Below, piece after piece: positions 28,281 through 36,979 of a DNA stretch of 45,767 nt. The notes beneath the pieces were generated by a model. The model was given only the letters and a program-made list of their open reading frames with translations, had not been told where the DNA came from and searched no databases. Both the position numbers and the translations under genes were made by a program. Every line of letters starts with the position of its first letter. Position 1 is the first letter of the stretch. The DNA comes from an uncultured bacterium (GTDB lineage Bacteria > UBP6 > UBA1177): assembly GCA_905235605.1 (NCBI GenBank), contig CAJOMF010000006.1, positions 3,678 to 49,444 of the forward strand, read 5' to 3'.

Positions 28281-31200
28281 ATGAAAAAATTATTAGTGTT
28301 CATTTTTGTTCTTTCTGCAGTGCTTTCGGCATCCGCTTACGAAGGAACAACGATCGGTCCGGAAGTTTCCACGCTTGACGGCAAAAAACTTCAGTGGGAA
28401 GCCGGAAGTTTCGACTATTTCGTAATGTTCAAATCTTTGATGGGAAACGATGTCCGCGAGATCTGCTCCAGTGCAAGCTCGCCGGTCGGATGCGACTGGG
28501 AGGACAATCCCGAGCCGGACAGCTGCCTTCCGCAGAGCACTTTCCAGCTGACGAACCAGCATGTTCCGGAAGATGCATACGTCGAAGCAGCTTATCTTGT
28601 CTGGACTTCAAGCCTCGATCCGAACAATGTAAACCACACCGACAACACGGCGACTCTCAACTTTACATCGGACGACGGTCAGATCACTCAGACGATAAAC
28701 GCTGTCGCTCCCAGAATCGGGACTGCCGGAACCGATGCCAACCCGGGGCAGCAGGATTTCACGTTCGAAGGAATAACAACCGAGCAAAGCGGTACGATTT
28801 ACGGCGGATACTACACCTACCGTGTCGATGTCACCGATTTCTTCAACCAGATCCACGCAAAAGGAAGGGATCTCGGCTACAAATCTGACGGTATGTCACT
28901 TTACGGCAGCTATACTGTCAGTGATGTCGAATGCTCAAACGACTCGAACTATCTTTCGCAGATTGTAGGCACAAACGGCTACAGTGCTTCGGTAATGTGC
29001 GGCTGGTCGCTCATCACAGTCTACCGTTCAACGAGAATCAGCCCGAAAATGGTCTACATCTACAACGGTTTCGGAAGATTCTGCAAACAGGAAGTCGACC
29101 TCGGAATTTCAGGTTTCGAATTCCCTGACAAGCCTATCATCAAAATGACGATGGCTGTTCACGAAGGAGATCCCGGTCTGGCAAGTGCTTCAGGCTGCGG
29201 AACATACGGTATGGCAGCTTGTCCTCCGGAAGGTCTGCAGGTAACCGGCGAGACAACTGCTCCTGAAGATCTGGTCATTCTCCAGAATCAGTGCAATCCA
29301 GCCAAATTTGTAGATTCAAGCGGAACGGCATTCAACTATTCCGATACCTATAACTCGATTTCAAGCATCTACGGCTGGAACGATGATTTCCCGACCTGTA
29401 TCGGCGGTGACCCGAACAATCCTGATCCGGACACCCTTGAATACACGATGGATGTCGATACTTTCCTGCTTGATGCAGAGGCTAACCCCGATTTCGACAG
29501 ACAGTTCAAAAAAGGCGACTCCAACATGTTCATAAAAATAGGTGCCAACGCAGACTGCATCTATCCGAACTACATGGTCGTCTCGCTTGATACCAAAGCT
29601 CCGAGATACGATATTCCGATAAACCCGGTAACTCCCGACGGAAGAGAGAAAAACTACTGCTCATGCTCCGAACAGGCTGATTCCGTCTGCGCGACAGCCC
29701 CGTTCTACTTCATGATCAAAGTCCAGAACTGGGGAGACGATCTTTCGACGAACGTAACTGTTCAGGACACGCTTTCACCGAAAGTCAACTATATTTCCGG
29801 CACGACCGAAATGTGCAAAGAGTGGAAAAGCGACAATGTCTGCAAGAAATGGGAAGCAGTCGAAGACATAAACGGAGGTTTCCCGCTGACGAATCCATAT
29901 AAAGTGGCGGATATACTCGGCTACTGCGATCAGGTATATCAGACCTGCGATGAAACGATAATGATCCGTTTCAAAGTCAAACCTAAAGACAATCTTGCAA
30001 AGAACGAAGTCATTGAAAATACCGCTATAATCAGTGACGATTCGGGCAAACCCTACAAAACCAACACTTCGATCCCGCTCAGGCTCACATTCGGCAGCTG
30101 TCCTTCGGCAGCCGCTTGCGAAAATCCCGACCTTACGAACTGCGGCGGTTACGGTGACGGCGAAGGCTGTACGAAAGACGAAGAATGCGGCACAGGAAAA
30201 GTCTGCAAAAACGGAGGATGCGTAATCGACGAATCCAATTTTGCCGGCAGCGCTAAAACCACCGTTGCAACAGGTAAAAACTCTCCTGTAAGCGGTGACG
30301 CTGCAATAATCATCCCGGCTCCGACGGAAAAACTTGTCATGGGACAGTTCTCCGTTTTGGCTTCGACTGAGGAATCCGGCAAAAACTTCTCGTTCGATTC
30401 GGTCATTGCGAGCCTCTATGCAAAAGACCAGGCTACGCAGATCACCAATGTCAAACTTGTCTACGACAAAAACGGAAACGGCATTTTCGATGACGGCGAT
30501 ACCGAAGTCACCGACCCTCAAAGCGTAAAGGCAAACACCGTTTCCCTTGCTCTGAAAGGCGATTCCACAGTTTATGAGTCGAACATCCTTCACCATTTCC
30601 TGATCGTTGCCGATGCTTCATACAAAACACCTGAATCGGTTCCGGTCAACACGAGTTTCTATTTCTACATTGAAAGCATCGAGAGATTTTCTTTCAGCAG
30701 AGTCCGGAACATGACCACTGAAAATTCGGGATTCCCGATGAATTTTGCAGAGTTTTCGTTCGAGCCGACGGTTGAAGCATTCGTCTTCACAAAAGGCAGC
30801 GTAGAACCGCCTGTTCCGTCGCTTTCCGACATTAACAAAACTCCGACAGGAATCATTCAGGCCAGGGCTAAGGCTATTGCGCACAGCAACAGTATTAAGA
30901 AAATCACACTTAAAACGACATCCAAATCGGTAAAATTCAAGGACGGGATCAAAAAGATCTCTGTTTTTCTCGACACCAACAAGGATGCTTCCTACGATGG
31001 CGAAGTGCAGCTCGTCAGTGCTGTTCCTACCGAATCTTCCAACCTGCTGGATATAGTTTTTGACACTCCCCTCTCTTTTGAAGCAGGCGAAGAAAAAACT
31101 CTGCTTTTTGTAGCAGAATTCAATATTCCCAAAGATATGACAGCGGAATTCGAAATCCAGAAATCGAAAGTCAAACTTGCAACCTCCACCGAACTTATCG

Positions 31201-31394
31201 GGCTGCCGGTAAAATCAAAAGCATTTACCTACAAATGCGAAGAAGGTGATCTTACCTGCCTTGAAGACGACGATGACGGCGGAAGCTGCGCAGTAACGGC
31301 AATAGACGACAGAAACACCGGCGTTTCCGCTGTTTTTGCAATGCTTCTTTTTGTTTTGGGATTTGCATTTTTTGCGAGAAAAATTTCCATTTAA
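28281..31394 (+). CDS. Large secreted surface protein with MYXO-CTERM-like C-terminus
   Basis: The 1037-residue protein has an ordinary signal peptide (1-19, cut near SASA-YEG). The N-terminal third (about 100-300) has a beta-rich region with VWTSSLDP and MCGWSLITVYRST, like the DUF3344-type domains of surface proteins. A DUF11-like repeat follows near 480-540 (VQNWGDDLSTNVTVQDTLSP). A small six-cysteine module with CTKDEECGTGKVCKNGGC lies near 630-650. The C-terminus has an acidic stretch, then GGSCAV with Cys1003, a hydrophobic segment (about 1013-1031) and ARK. This Cys + membrane span + basic tail is the layout of MYXO-CTERM and related surface-sorting signals. It probably sits on the outer surface; function unknown. 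Confidence 0.8.
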   Translation: MKKLLVFIFVLSAVLSASAYEGTTIGPEVSTLDGKKLQWEAGSFDYFVMFKSLMGNDVREICSSASSPVGCDWEDNPEPDSCLPQSTFQLTNQHVPEDAYVEAAYLVWTSSLDPNNVNHTDNTATLNFTSDDGQITQTINAVAPRIGTAGTDANPGQQDFTFEGITTEQSGTIYGGYYTYRVDVTDFFNQIHAKGRDLGYKSDGMSLYGSYTVSDVECSNDSNYLSQIVGTNGYSASVMCGWSLITVYRSTRISPKMVYIYNGFGRFCKQEVDLGISGFEFPDKPIIKMTMAVHEGDPGLASASGCGTYGMAACPPEGLQVTGETTAPEDLVILQNQCNPAKFVDSSGTAFNYSDTYNSISSIYGWNDDFPTCIGGDPNNPDPDTLEYTMDVDTFLLDAEANPDFDRQFKKGDSNMFIKIGANADCIYPNYMVVSLDTKAPRYDIPINPVTPDGREKNYCSCSEQADSVCATAPFYFMIKVQNWGDDLSTNVTVQDTLSPKVNYISGTTEMCKEWKSDNVCKKWEAVEDINGGFPLTNPYKVADILGYCDQVYQTCDETIMIRFKVKPKDNLAKNEVIENTAIISDDSGKPYKTNTSIPLRLTFGSCPSAAACENPDLTNCGGYGDGEGCTKDEECGTGKVCKNGGCVIDESNFAGSAKTTVATGKNSPVSGDAAIIIPAPTEKLVMGQFSVLASTEESGKNFSFDSVIASLYAKDQATQITNVKLVYDKNGNGIFDDGDTEVTDPQSVKANTVSLALKGDSTVYESNILHHFLIVADASYKTPESVPVNTSFYFYIESIERFSFSRVRNMTTENSGFPMNFAEFSFEPTVEAFVFTKGSVEPPVPSLSDINKTPTGIIQARAKAIAHSNSIKKITLKTTSKSVKFKDGIKKISVFLDTNKDASYDGEVQLVSAVPTESSNLLDIVFDTPLSFEAGEEKTLLFVAEFNIPKDMTAEFEIQKSKVKLATSTELIGLPVKSKAFTYKCEEGDLTCLEDDDDGGSCAVTAIDDRNTGVSAVFAMLLFVLGFAFFARKISI

Positions 31395-34618: not shown

Positions 34619-35721
34619 CTATTCTTCGTATTTGTTGTGAGGAACATCGCTGTTAGGATCAACGATGTCAAAAATCTCGTCAGCTTTTTCAAGAAGCGTT
34701 GCACAATCCATGGAATCATCGACTTTTACAAGCTGGAAAACGCTTCTTGCAGTCTCTGTAACTGTGGTTTTCGTACATCTGAGAGAGACATTGGGGGTCT
34801 GCAGATGCGCATACTGTTCATCCGTCCACTCTACATTTCCTTCTATTTTGCCGTTGCTTACGACTTTTCCTGACAAACTGTGCCCGAACCTGTGAACGTA
34901 GTACATTTTACCGCTTGCCAGAGTGCTTGAAAACTGGACTGTAAACGCAGGGTTCCCGTCTTCATCATGGTCAAAGATCCTTGGGTCGCTGTCAGAACTG
35001 ATCATCGGTTCAGTTGACGGATCATCCATGTTTGCACCGCGGAGTTCCCAGTCTTTGTTGAGTTTGAATGTCTTTTCTCCGTCGTTTTCAGAGATTTCAA
35101 GAAAGGTTCGTTTTCGTGCCCCGGGATCTGATAAGGTTTCCAATAGTTGAAGACCGTGTTGAATTTCGAACCGTCGAACTCGTTAAGACCGACCCTTCCC
35201 TGGCTTATTTTGCCGTCAAGTCCAGTGCGGTTGTCAGTCCTGCAGATCCGCTCGTCTTTCTTGTAAAAGTCAAGTTTGCAGTCAGCATTCGGTTTGATTT
35301 CAACAACAACGAATCTGGTCGTTACGCTTGGAACATCCTGAGCAAAAGTTGTGCTTGATGCCGAACGGAGGATCACTTTCTGAGCCCATGTCCCTACGAG
35401 CTCCTGTTCAAGTTCACTGAGTTCACAAGCGGTTACCGGTTCGTCATCCTGCACATCTTCAGAACCATCCGCTTCATCGGTCGGATCGCCGGTCGGATCC
35501 GTCGGATCGGTATCACTGTCTTCGCTGCCTGGATCGGTTTCGTTGCCGTTGTTGTCAGTATCATTGGCAGTATCTGACGCTGTGTCAGGAGTTTCTTCAG
35601 AACCACTCTCTGCTGCGGAATCAGGATCATCAGCAGGAGTCTGAGTCTTGTTGTCACTGCCGCATGAAACAAAGAAAATTACTGCACAAACAGCTGCAAT
35701 TAAAATTACGTTTTTTGTCAT
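34619..35721 (-). pseudogene. DPT-linker lipoprotein, frameshifted copy
   Basis: The 5' part (35721 downward) has a lipoprotein signal peptide (VISC-like lipobox, FFVSC, Cys20), an acidic Asp/Pro/Thr linker and a domain starting CELSELEQELVGTWAQKV. At about 35098-35104 the frame changes: the paralogue at 35870-36979 reads PGHESDTYLEIAEE, and here the same sequence is reached only after a missing base near CCTTTCTTGAAATC. The rest (LEISENDGEKTFKLNKDW to DVPHNKYEE) then continues in another frame to 34619. A one-base deletion, a sequencing error, or a programmed shift could explain it. Without the shift the product would be about 365 residues, like the paralogue. Confidence 0.8.
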
Positions 35722-35820
35722 TTTTCCCTCTTCAAAATTACCAATAAACGATAAAAACTCACTGAATAATAGGACTTTTTGGTCAGTAGGAGGTTACAGC
35801 GAAACACACGAGTATACAGA

Positions 35821-35848
35821 ATAAAAAAGCCCCTCCGGAGAGGGGCTG
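35821..35848 (-). terminator. Rho-independent terminator after the intact DPT lipoprotein
   Basis: AGCCCCTC (35828-35835), loop CGGA, GAGGGGCT (35840-35847), followed on the minus strand by TTTTTTAT. It ends the unit made of the outer-membrane protein and the intact DPT lipoprotein, 22 bp past the stop. Confidence 0.9.
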
Positions 35849-35869
35849 GAAAAATCGGAGATTTAGTAA

Positions 35870-36979
35870 TTATTCTCCGTACTTATCACTGTGAGGAACA
35901 TCACTGTTGGGATCAACGATGTCAAAGATAGTGTCAGCGTTCCCGAGAAGTGTTTCGCAGTCCATCGAATCATCGACTTTTACAAGCTGGAAAACGCTTT
36001 TCGTTTCGTCCGTCTCAGTCGTTTTCTGACCTCTGAGAGTGAGGTTCGGGGTTTTCTGATGAGCATACTGCTCGTCTGTCCAGTTGACAGTCCCTTCGAT
36101 CTTGCCGTCAGCTACGACTTTACCGGTAAGAATGTGGCTGAGTCTCTGGACATAGTACATTGTTCCGCTTGCAAGGGAACTGGTGAAAAGGATGGAGAAC
36201 GCAGGATTACCGTCTTCATCATGGTCAAAAATTCTGGAATCGCTGTCTGAATCGATCATCGGCTCAGTCGAAGGATCGGTCATATTCGCACCGCGGAGTT
36301 CCCAGTCTTTGTTGAGTTTGAACGTTTTTTCTCCGCCTTCTTCTGCGATTTCAAGGTAAGTATCGCTTTCATGTCCCGGGATCTGATACGGTTTCCAGTG
36401 GTGGAAAATCGTGTTGAATTTAGAACCGTCTTCCTCATTGAATCCGACTCTTCCCTGGCTTACTTTGCCGGCAAAACCGGTGCGGTTCGCCGTTCTGCAG
36501 ATCTGGTTTCCTTTTTTGAAGAAATCAAGTTTGCAGTTCTCATCGGGTTTGATTTCGGTAACGATATAGCGGGTCGTTACGCTCGGAACATTCTGAGCCA
36601 TTGTGGTGCTCGATGAAGAACGGAGAATTATCTTCTGTGCCCAAGTTCCTACGAACTCTTTTTCAAGGTCGCTGAGTTCACAGCCTTCAGGATCAGTTGT
36701 AGGTTCCGTGGTCGGCTCGTCGGTCGGATTCGTCGGCTCATCAGTATCCGTCGGATCTTCCGTAGTTGTCGGATCAGTCGGGTTGTCAGTAGGATCTTCC
36801 GTAGTCGTCGGATCGGTCGGGTTGTCAGTAGGATCTTCCGTAGTCGTCGGATCAGTCTGATCGGTGTCTGTCGTCTGGTCAGGATCGTCTGCTTTCGTCG
36901 GGTTTGTACTGTCGCCGCCGCATGAAACAAAGAACAATGTTGCGCAGATCGCTGCGATTGAAATCATAAATTTTTTCAT
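35870..36979 (-). CDS. DPT-linker lipoprotein, intact copy
   Basis: The 369-residue protein has a lipoprotein signal peptide (lipobox FFVSC, Cys20). A linker of about 75 residues made of Asp, Pro and Thr follows, including three 13-residue units of the type NPTDPTTTEDPTD. The conserved C-terminal domain (about 100-369) starts CELSDLEKEFVGTWAQKI and includes TRYIVTEIKPDENCKLDFF, RVGFNEEDGSKFNTIFHHW and FKLNKDWELRGANM. I do not know this domain; VGTWAQKI suggests a lipocalin-like barrel, but this is weak. The ATG has AAGGAGAAAAAG in front, and the outer-membrane protein gene ends 27 bp upstream, so the two are one operon. Confidence 0.88.
   Translation of the reverse strand: MKKFMISIAAICATLFFVSCGGDSTNPTKADDPDQTTDTDQTDPTTTEDPTDNPTDPTTTEDPTDNPTDPTTTEDPTDTDEPTNPTDEPTTEPTTDPEGCELSDLEKEFVGTWAQKIILRSSSSTTMAQNVPSVTTRYIVTEIKPDENCKLDFFKKGNQICRTANRTGFAGKVSQGRVGFNEEDGSKFNTIFHHWKPYQIPGHESDTYLEIAEEGGEKTFKLNKDWELRGANMTDPSTEPMIDSDSDSRIFDHDEDGNPAFSILFTSSLASGTMYYVQRLSHILTGKVVADGKIEGTVNWTDEQYAHQKTPNLTLRGQKTTETDETKSVFQLVKVDDSMDCETLLGNADTIFDIVDPNSDVPHSDKYGE
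36753..36869 (-). repeat. 39-bp tandem repeat in the DPT linker
   Basis: GGATCTTCCGTAGT starts at 36753, 36792 and 36831, an exact 39-bp period. Each unit encodes 13 residues rich in Asp, Pro and Thr. Copies 2 and 3 are nearly identical at the nucleotide level, suggesting recent unit gain. Confidence 0.9.

Follow-up and report, generated by a model that had tools for sequence, protein, structure and literature searches.

Protein tails that bear an invariant Cys and are accompanied by a CPBP protease are known from the JDVT-CTERM/MrtJ and Synerg-CTERM/MrtS systems. GlyGly is the signature of rhombosortase tags, and PEP that of exosortase tags. MYXO-CTERM is called a myxobacteria-specific tag in the passages of the Myxococcus xanthus paper that deal with it (PMC11980579); there, the lipidating enzyme is stated as not identified, with Lgt as the leading candidate. 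The DNA analysed here, a stretch of 45,767 nucleotides (the window), encodes a protein whose C-terminal tail is very probably a sorting signal, read by a myxosortase system in a UBP6 bacterium. A set of such tails probably acts with a single matching membrane protease to fix proteins to the cell surface in this poorly known lineage of gut bacteria. As far as the passages on MYXO-CTERM/MrtX of M. xanthus go (PMC11980579), both systems combine a signal peptide with a Cys, a helix and a basic end, both proteases are of the CPBP type with EExxxR, His and HxxxN, and the presence of T2SS and of tails on many unrelated proteins is common to both. An invariant Cys tail and a CPBP protease are also shared with JDVT-CTERM/MrtJ and Synerg-CTERM/MrtS; however, in UBP6 a single enzyme would act on the products of several scattered genes, whereas those systems are two-gene pairs. 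In the literature searched, no paper linked UBP6 to a myxosortase.

The gene in question (28281–31394, + strand, as are all features of the protein given below) encodes, according to its open reading frame, Pfam and an AlphaFold model, a 1037-aa exported, beta-rich surface protein of the DUF11/DUF7619 type. Its N-terminal Sec signal peptide, MKKLLVFIFVLSAVLSASA (residues 1–19; 28281–28337), is modelled as a helix at residues 2–15 and has no lipobox Cys. Consecutive beta domains make up the body (model mean pLDDT 84); among them, DUF7619 passes its cut-off (32.4 bits vs 27) and DUF11, with 21 bits, stays just below it. Foldseek with this body gave generic Ig-like beta domains only, with low TM-scores, and a search of viral contigs with the protein gave no match. 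The C-terminus reads LEDDDD-GGSC-AVTAIDDRNTG-VSAVFAMLLFVLGFAFFA-RKISI. Here, an acidic linker, EDDDD (residues 995–999; 31263–31277), predicted to be disordered (pLDDT < 50 for 995–1016), is followed by the signature GGSCAVTAIDD (31278–31310), delimited from typed tails and body-selected ends, in which Cys1003 (codon 31287–31289) is the predicted site of lipidation and cleavage. After a spacer of 11 residues come the membrane helix VSAVFAMLLFVLGFAFFA (residues 1015–1032; 31323–31376; Kyte-Doolittle maximum 2.71; model helix 1016–1036) and the short basic tail RKISI (31377–31391), predicted from sequence to be cytoplasmic. The order of an invariant-Cys signature, a helix and a basic cytoplasmic end is the MYXO-CTERM layout, the basic end (RK) being weak. 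The open frame is present, as are the GGSC, hydrophobic span and basic end named in the original prediction. Elsewhere in the window, two adjacent paralogous lipoproteins (FFVSCGSD and FFVSCGGD) with T/D/P-rich linkers are encoded at 35002–36979 on the minus strand, the second of which carries repeated TDNPTDPTTTEDP units.

A check of the source genome (G000; a 2.67-Mb assembly of 136 contigs, 96% complete) for other such ends was positive, giving four further proteins, one of them with an unrelated body. When the tail alone was the query, two more proteins were found (E 3e-5 and 5.5e-5); a three-row tail profile added two further ones, and a five-row profile gave five places, on contigs C6 (the window), C22, C18, C77 and C57. 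Four of these five are open frames of 1023–1077 aa with homologous bodies, and the protein on C57 (390 aa, DUF7151/collagen) clusters apart from them outside the tail, so that two unrelated body types, DUF11-type and DUF7151/collagen, bear the tail within one genome. A sixth place, on C43, holds a helix-free form of the Cys tail. Candidates on C15 (L004, E 1.48 in the tail search), C38 and C74 (both A1 matches) were dropped, their ends having no motif.

The wider survey took in 28 genomes of the same phylum and 33 others (61 in all). The relatives, obtained by an enzyme-based scan of genome contigs, come mostly from ruminants, and the enzyme is 79, 75 and 58% identical to those of deposits labelled UBP6_UBA1177, UBP6_UBA1196 and UBP6_UBA1209, respectively. 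We only infer that the related genomes represent candidate phylum UBP6, since two other relatives found with the enzyme were deposited as Spirochaetales. Tail profile A2 matched 22 of the 28 same-phylum genomes and also three of the 33 others, at E 0.02–0.10. At E ≤ 0.01, profile A4 (32 rows, drawn from 12 of the 28) matched 27/28 and 0/33; 15 of the 16 same-phylum genomes that contributed no row to it were among those matched. In G026, the enzyme is present and no tail matches A4 at this threshold. As judged by profile matching, this distribution is more than chance. The bodies of 57 tail proteins (three of 60, shorter than 80 aa, were excluded) fell into clusters of 48, 7, 1 and 1, and four unrelated body types occur in the phylum: DUF11/DUF7619, DUF7151 with collagen, HYDIN Ig, and peptidyl-arginine deiminase with MopE. 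Occurrence on unrelated bodies is what characterises a sorting signal.

The 60 same-phylum tails were filtered for Cys, so that the invariance of this residue, in them as in A4, results from the selection itself. Around it, in typed tails (for which Cys was likewise a selection criterion), G occupies position −1 in 26/32 and S or A position +1 in 31/32, the extended signature of UBP6 tails being G-C-[SA]-[IVL]-x-x-[VI]-[DE]. A tail-unselected test was provided by searching with the body only, from which 40 ends, together with further short-form places, were fetched from a longer list; these ends were mainly at places absent from the earlier fetches. Thirty-five had the helix and Cys, four had Cys without a helix and one was cut by a contig end; the Cys motif was thus found in all 39 complete ends.

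A candidate processing enzyme is encoded in the same genome. PF02517 (CPBP) has a single match there, a 213-aa protein at C4:47307–47945, and its best NCBIfam matches are all myxosortases, each below the curated cut-off (score/cut-off: MrtP 82.9/250, Mrt_core (NF040914) 77.7/100, MrtC 76.1/195, MrtJ 61.1/75, MrtS 56.9/130). The protein has both the myxosortase catalytic set EExxxR, His and HxxxN and the Rce1 fold. Among aligned enzymes, E122, E123, R127, H161 and H198 are kept in 25/25 and N202 in 24/25. The structure model (pLDDT 92.7) superimposes on SpdC (6u0o; Z 14.9, 195 residues, rmsd 3.2) and MmRce1 (4cad; Z 13.7, 192 residues, rmsd 3.3), the next row of the comparison having Z 4.3; Foldseek of the model gave no match at E ≤ 0.001, the best being 4cad at E 0.43. 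Judged by its profiles and predicted structure, this enzyme belongs to the myxosortase (CPBP) family, within which it is divergent. Homologs were found in 28/28 same-phylum genomes and 2/33 others, and on sequence grounds the pairing of tail and protease across the phylum is well supported. The GspD secretin is also present in the source genome (448.8 bits, above cut-off). The search for a sorting enzyme was thus positive, the enzyme being neither a rhombosortase nor an exosortase, and the original idea of a variant MYXO-CTERM-like signal recognised by a different sortase-like enzyme gains support from the shared ends and the divergent myxosortase. Directly upstream of the enzyme gene, at L281:9896–11302 (+), lies a gene for a 469-aa membrane protein, kept beside the enzyme in the genus; a weak TIGR01494 match suggests likeness to a degenerate P-type ATPase, and Pfam assigned the protein to no family. 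We set it aside as a system component because it was unseen beside the enzyme outside the genus and has no Pfam family.

TIGR03901 (MYXO-CTERM; cut-off 20 bits) had no match in the source genome at E ≤ 0.001 or at E ≤ 0.1, and the tail segment searched alone matched no family. This profile passes its cut-off in 9/61 genomes, namely 5/28 of the same phylum (G020–G024) and 4/33 others (G055, G031, G035 and G037), and is therefore not very specific. In one of the latter, the 9-Mb genome G055, the enzyme scores 417.6 bits against MrtX, far above cut-off. Sister families in the same phylum have GCGC- or CDC-type motifs and Arg-rich ends; as far as motifs can tell, their tails bridge to the form seen in the window. 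The spacer between Cys and membrane segment, remarked on from the start as unusually long, was measured from Cys to the most hydrophobic 15-mer, and the observation holds: it is 9–15 residues in 60 same-phylum tails vs 1–8 in 10 tails of G055 (10 of 11 fetched ends passed the filter). In the prototype, TraA, it is 10, and the window spacer is therefore long yet within MYXO-CTERM. In addition to this spacer difference (9–15 vs 1–8), UBP6 differs from the M. xanthus system in phylum, in the extended signature and few Arg, in that TIGR03901 misses the window tail and the enzyme falls below all Mrt cut-offs, and in the helix-free short tails. By its layout and motif, the window tail is a drifted variant of MYXO-CTERM. 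This would mean that a complete, divergent set of signal and enzyme occurs in another phylum, with spacer and Arg content varying and Cys and its neighbours constant.

In the proposed mechanism, Sec would export the window protein by means of its N-terminal signal peptide, and the C-terminal helix would halt in the inner membrane, leaving the body periplasmic and RK cytoplasmic. A lipid would then be added to Cys1003, most plausibly by Lgt as the leading candidate enzyme, and the CPBP glutamic intramembrane protease would cut after the Cys and free the helix. Lipidation, cleavage and surface location of the tail proteins are thus predicted. We favour the sorting signal because of the tail family, the phylum-wide pairing with the protease, the catalytic residues and fold of the latter, and the GspD secretin; counted against it were the TIGR03901 miss in the source genome and the limited specificity of this profile, enzyme scores below the Mrt cut-offs, the weak RK as compared with the Arg-rich MYXO-CTERM, and genome G026, with the enzyme but no A4 match. 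A rival explanation would be an ordinary C-terminal membrane anchor: the helix would merely retain the protein in the inner membrane, and the presence of a Cys would be incidental. The helix alone would suffice to anchor the protein, and the basic end is short; however, this explanation is improbable in view of the Cys motif kept in all 39 complete body-selected ends, its retention even without a helix, its occurrence on unrelated bodies, and the presence of the tail tracking the myxosortase-like gene through the phylum. It is even harder to accept that a sorting signal is indeed present but read by a rhombosortase, an exosortase or an ordinary rhomboid, a reading to which we assign very little probability. 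The one observation in its favour, a single rhomboid-type TIGR03902 match in the source genome, falls far short of the cut-off (21.8 vs 84 bits), and the same was seen in 14/14 control genomes; exosortase PF09721 had no match in this 96% complete genome at E ≤ 0.01, and the tail has a Cys with neither the GlyGly nor the PEP signature.

The surprising part of the finding is the existence of tails without a helix. Conserved paralogs of the window protein, of about 410 aa, are kept across the genus (own copy, 411 aa, C43:14488–15720, which is L256:689–1921 (−); others at L257–L262, L265, L274, L279 and L285–L290); 16 of the 18 ends examined are SGCSLLFVD or near variants, stopping 5–6 residues after the Cys, and there is no membrane helix. 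In 16 aligned members, the mean top-residue fraction was 0.89 in the last nine columns vs 0.70 in the body. Another family, f3, ends with CxCS[VL][VI][WF], and in three of the four genomes whose enzyme region was examined (G020, G022 and G023; not G021) its short-tail genes (CxCSV[VI]W; L298, L296 and L297, respectively) share the strand of the myxosortase gene and follow it downstream by a few kb. Short-tail paralogs stop 4–6 residues after Cys (SGCSLLFVD, GCGCSVVW). Readthrough into a hidden helix was rejected, as the 3' DNA has no helix-plus-basic frame; in G019, it contains a hydrophobic AT-rich stretch without a basic end. In tandem DUF7151 genes (L080, L084 and L089), the Cys motif closes the second gene and is succeeded by an amphipathic stretch that lacks a basic end, the L080 sequence reading SSGCTVSLIDDNSALESFYSMISNVCRFVSDLF.

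A likeness to CaaX/Rce1 is seen in the protease fold (4cad, Z 13.7) and in short tails that end C-S-V-V-W, C-S-L-V-F or C-S-L-L-F-V-D. However, a CaaX box proper has three residues after its C and belongs to cytosolic proteins, whereas in the UBP6 short tails 4–6 residues follow the C and the proteins are exported; none of these tails has the C-terminal Cys plus three residues. Helix-free tails may be regarded as a natural deletion experiment, and suggest that the Cys signature has a role even without the helix. One could speculate, though we consider it rather unlikely, that UBP6 uses two forms of one Cys signal, helix-bearing and CaaX-like helix-free, both lipidated outside the cytoplasm by Lgt and trimmed by the same myxosortase; if true, bacteria would possess an extracytoplasmic equivalent of CaaX processing. 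For the short-tail paralogs only, the chances seem evenly balanced that they are unlipidated, and that the Cys engages in a disulfide bond or a periplasmic protease or an assembly partner recognises the hydrophobic end. A released helix-free periplasmic protein would have no evident route to the lipidating enzyme, and the aromatic short ends VVW and LVF are akin to those of C-terminal recognition peptides. On the other hand, short tails match the helix-bearing ones position by position (G-C-[SA]-[IVL]-x-x-[VI]-[DE]), and three of the four f3 genomes examined have short-tail genes shortly downstream of their myxosortase gene. Moreover, two homologs with no Cys end (L263 and L264) begin with MSIRLF...FYSGC, which looks lipobox-like because the window lipoproteins have FFVSC; in this one orthologous pair, an N-terminal lipid site may have replaced the C-terminal one.

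A possible link to Lgt comes from two contigs of Deltaproteobacteria (L127:3–4309 and L128:2–4453), on which genes in the order ileS-lspA-lgt-mrt lie on one strand, nearly touching or overlapping; ileS was assigned by eye, whereas the identity of LspA is backed by Pfam on both contigs and that of LGT on L128. We regard this as a lead, because there are two contigs only and the arrangement ileS-lspA-lgt is itself common; the order makes Lgt as the lipidating enzyme a directly testable hypothesis. In those passages of PMC11980579 that name Lgt, the lgt-mrt gene order is absent. The enzymes of L127 and L128 both pass the Mrt_core cut-off, with 110.7 and 126.3 bits vs 100.
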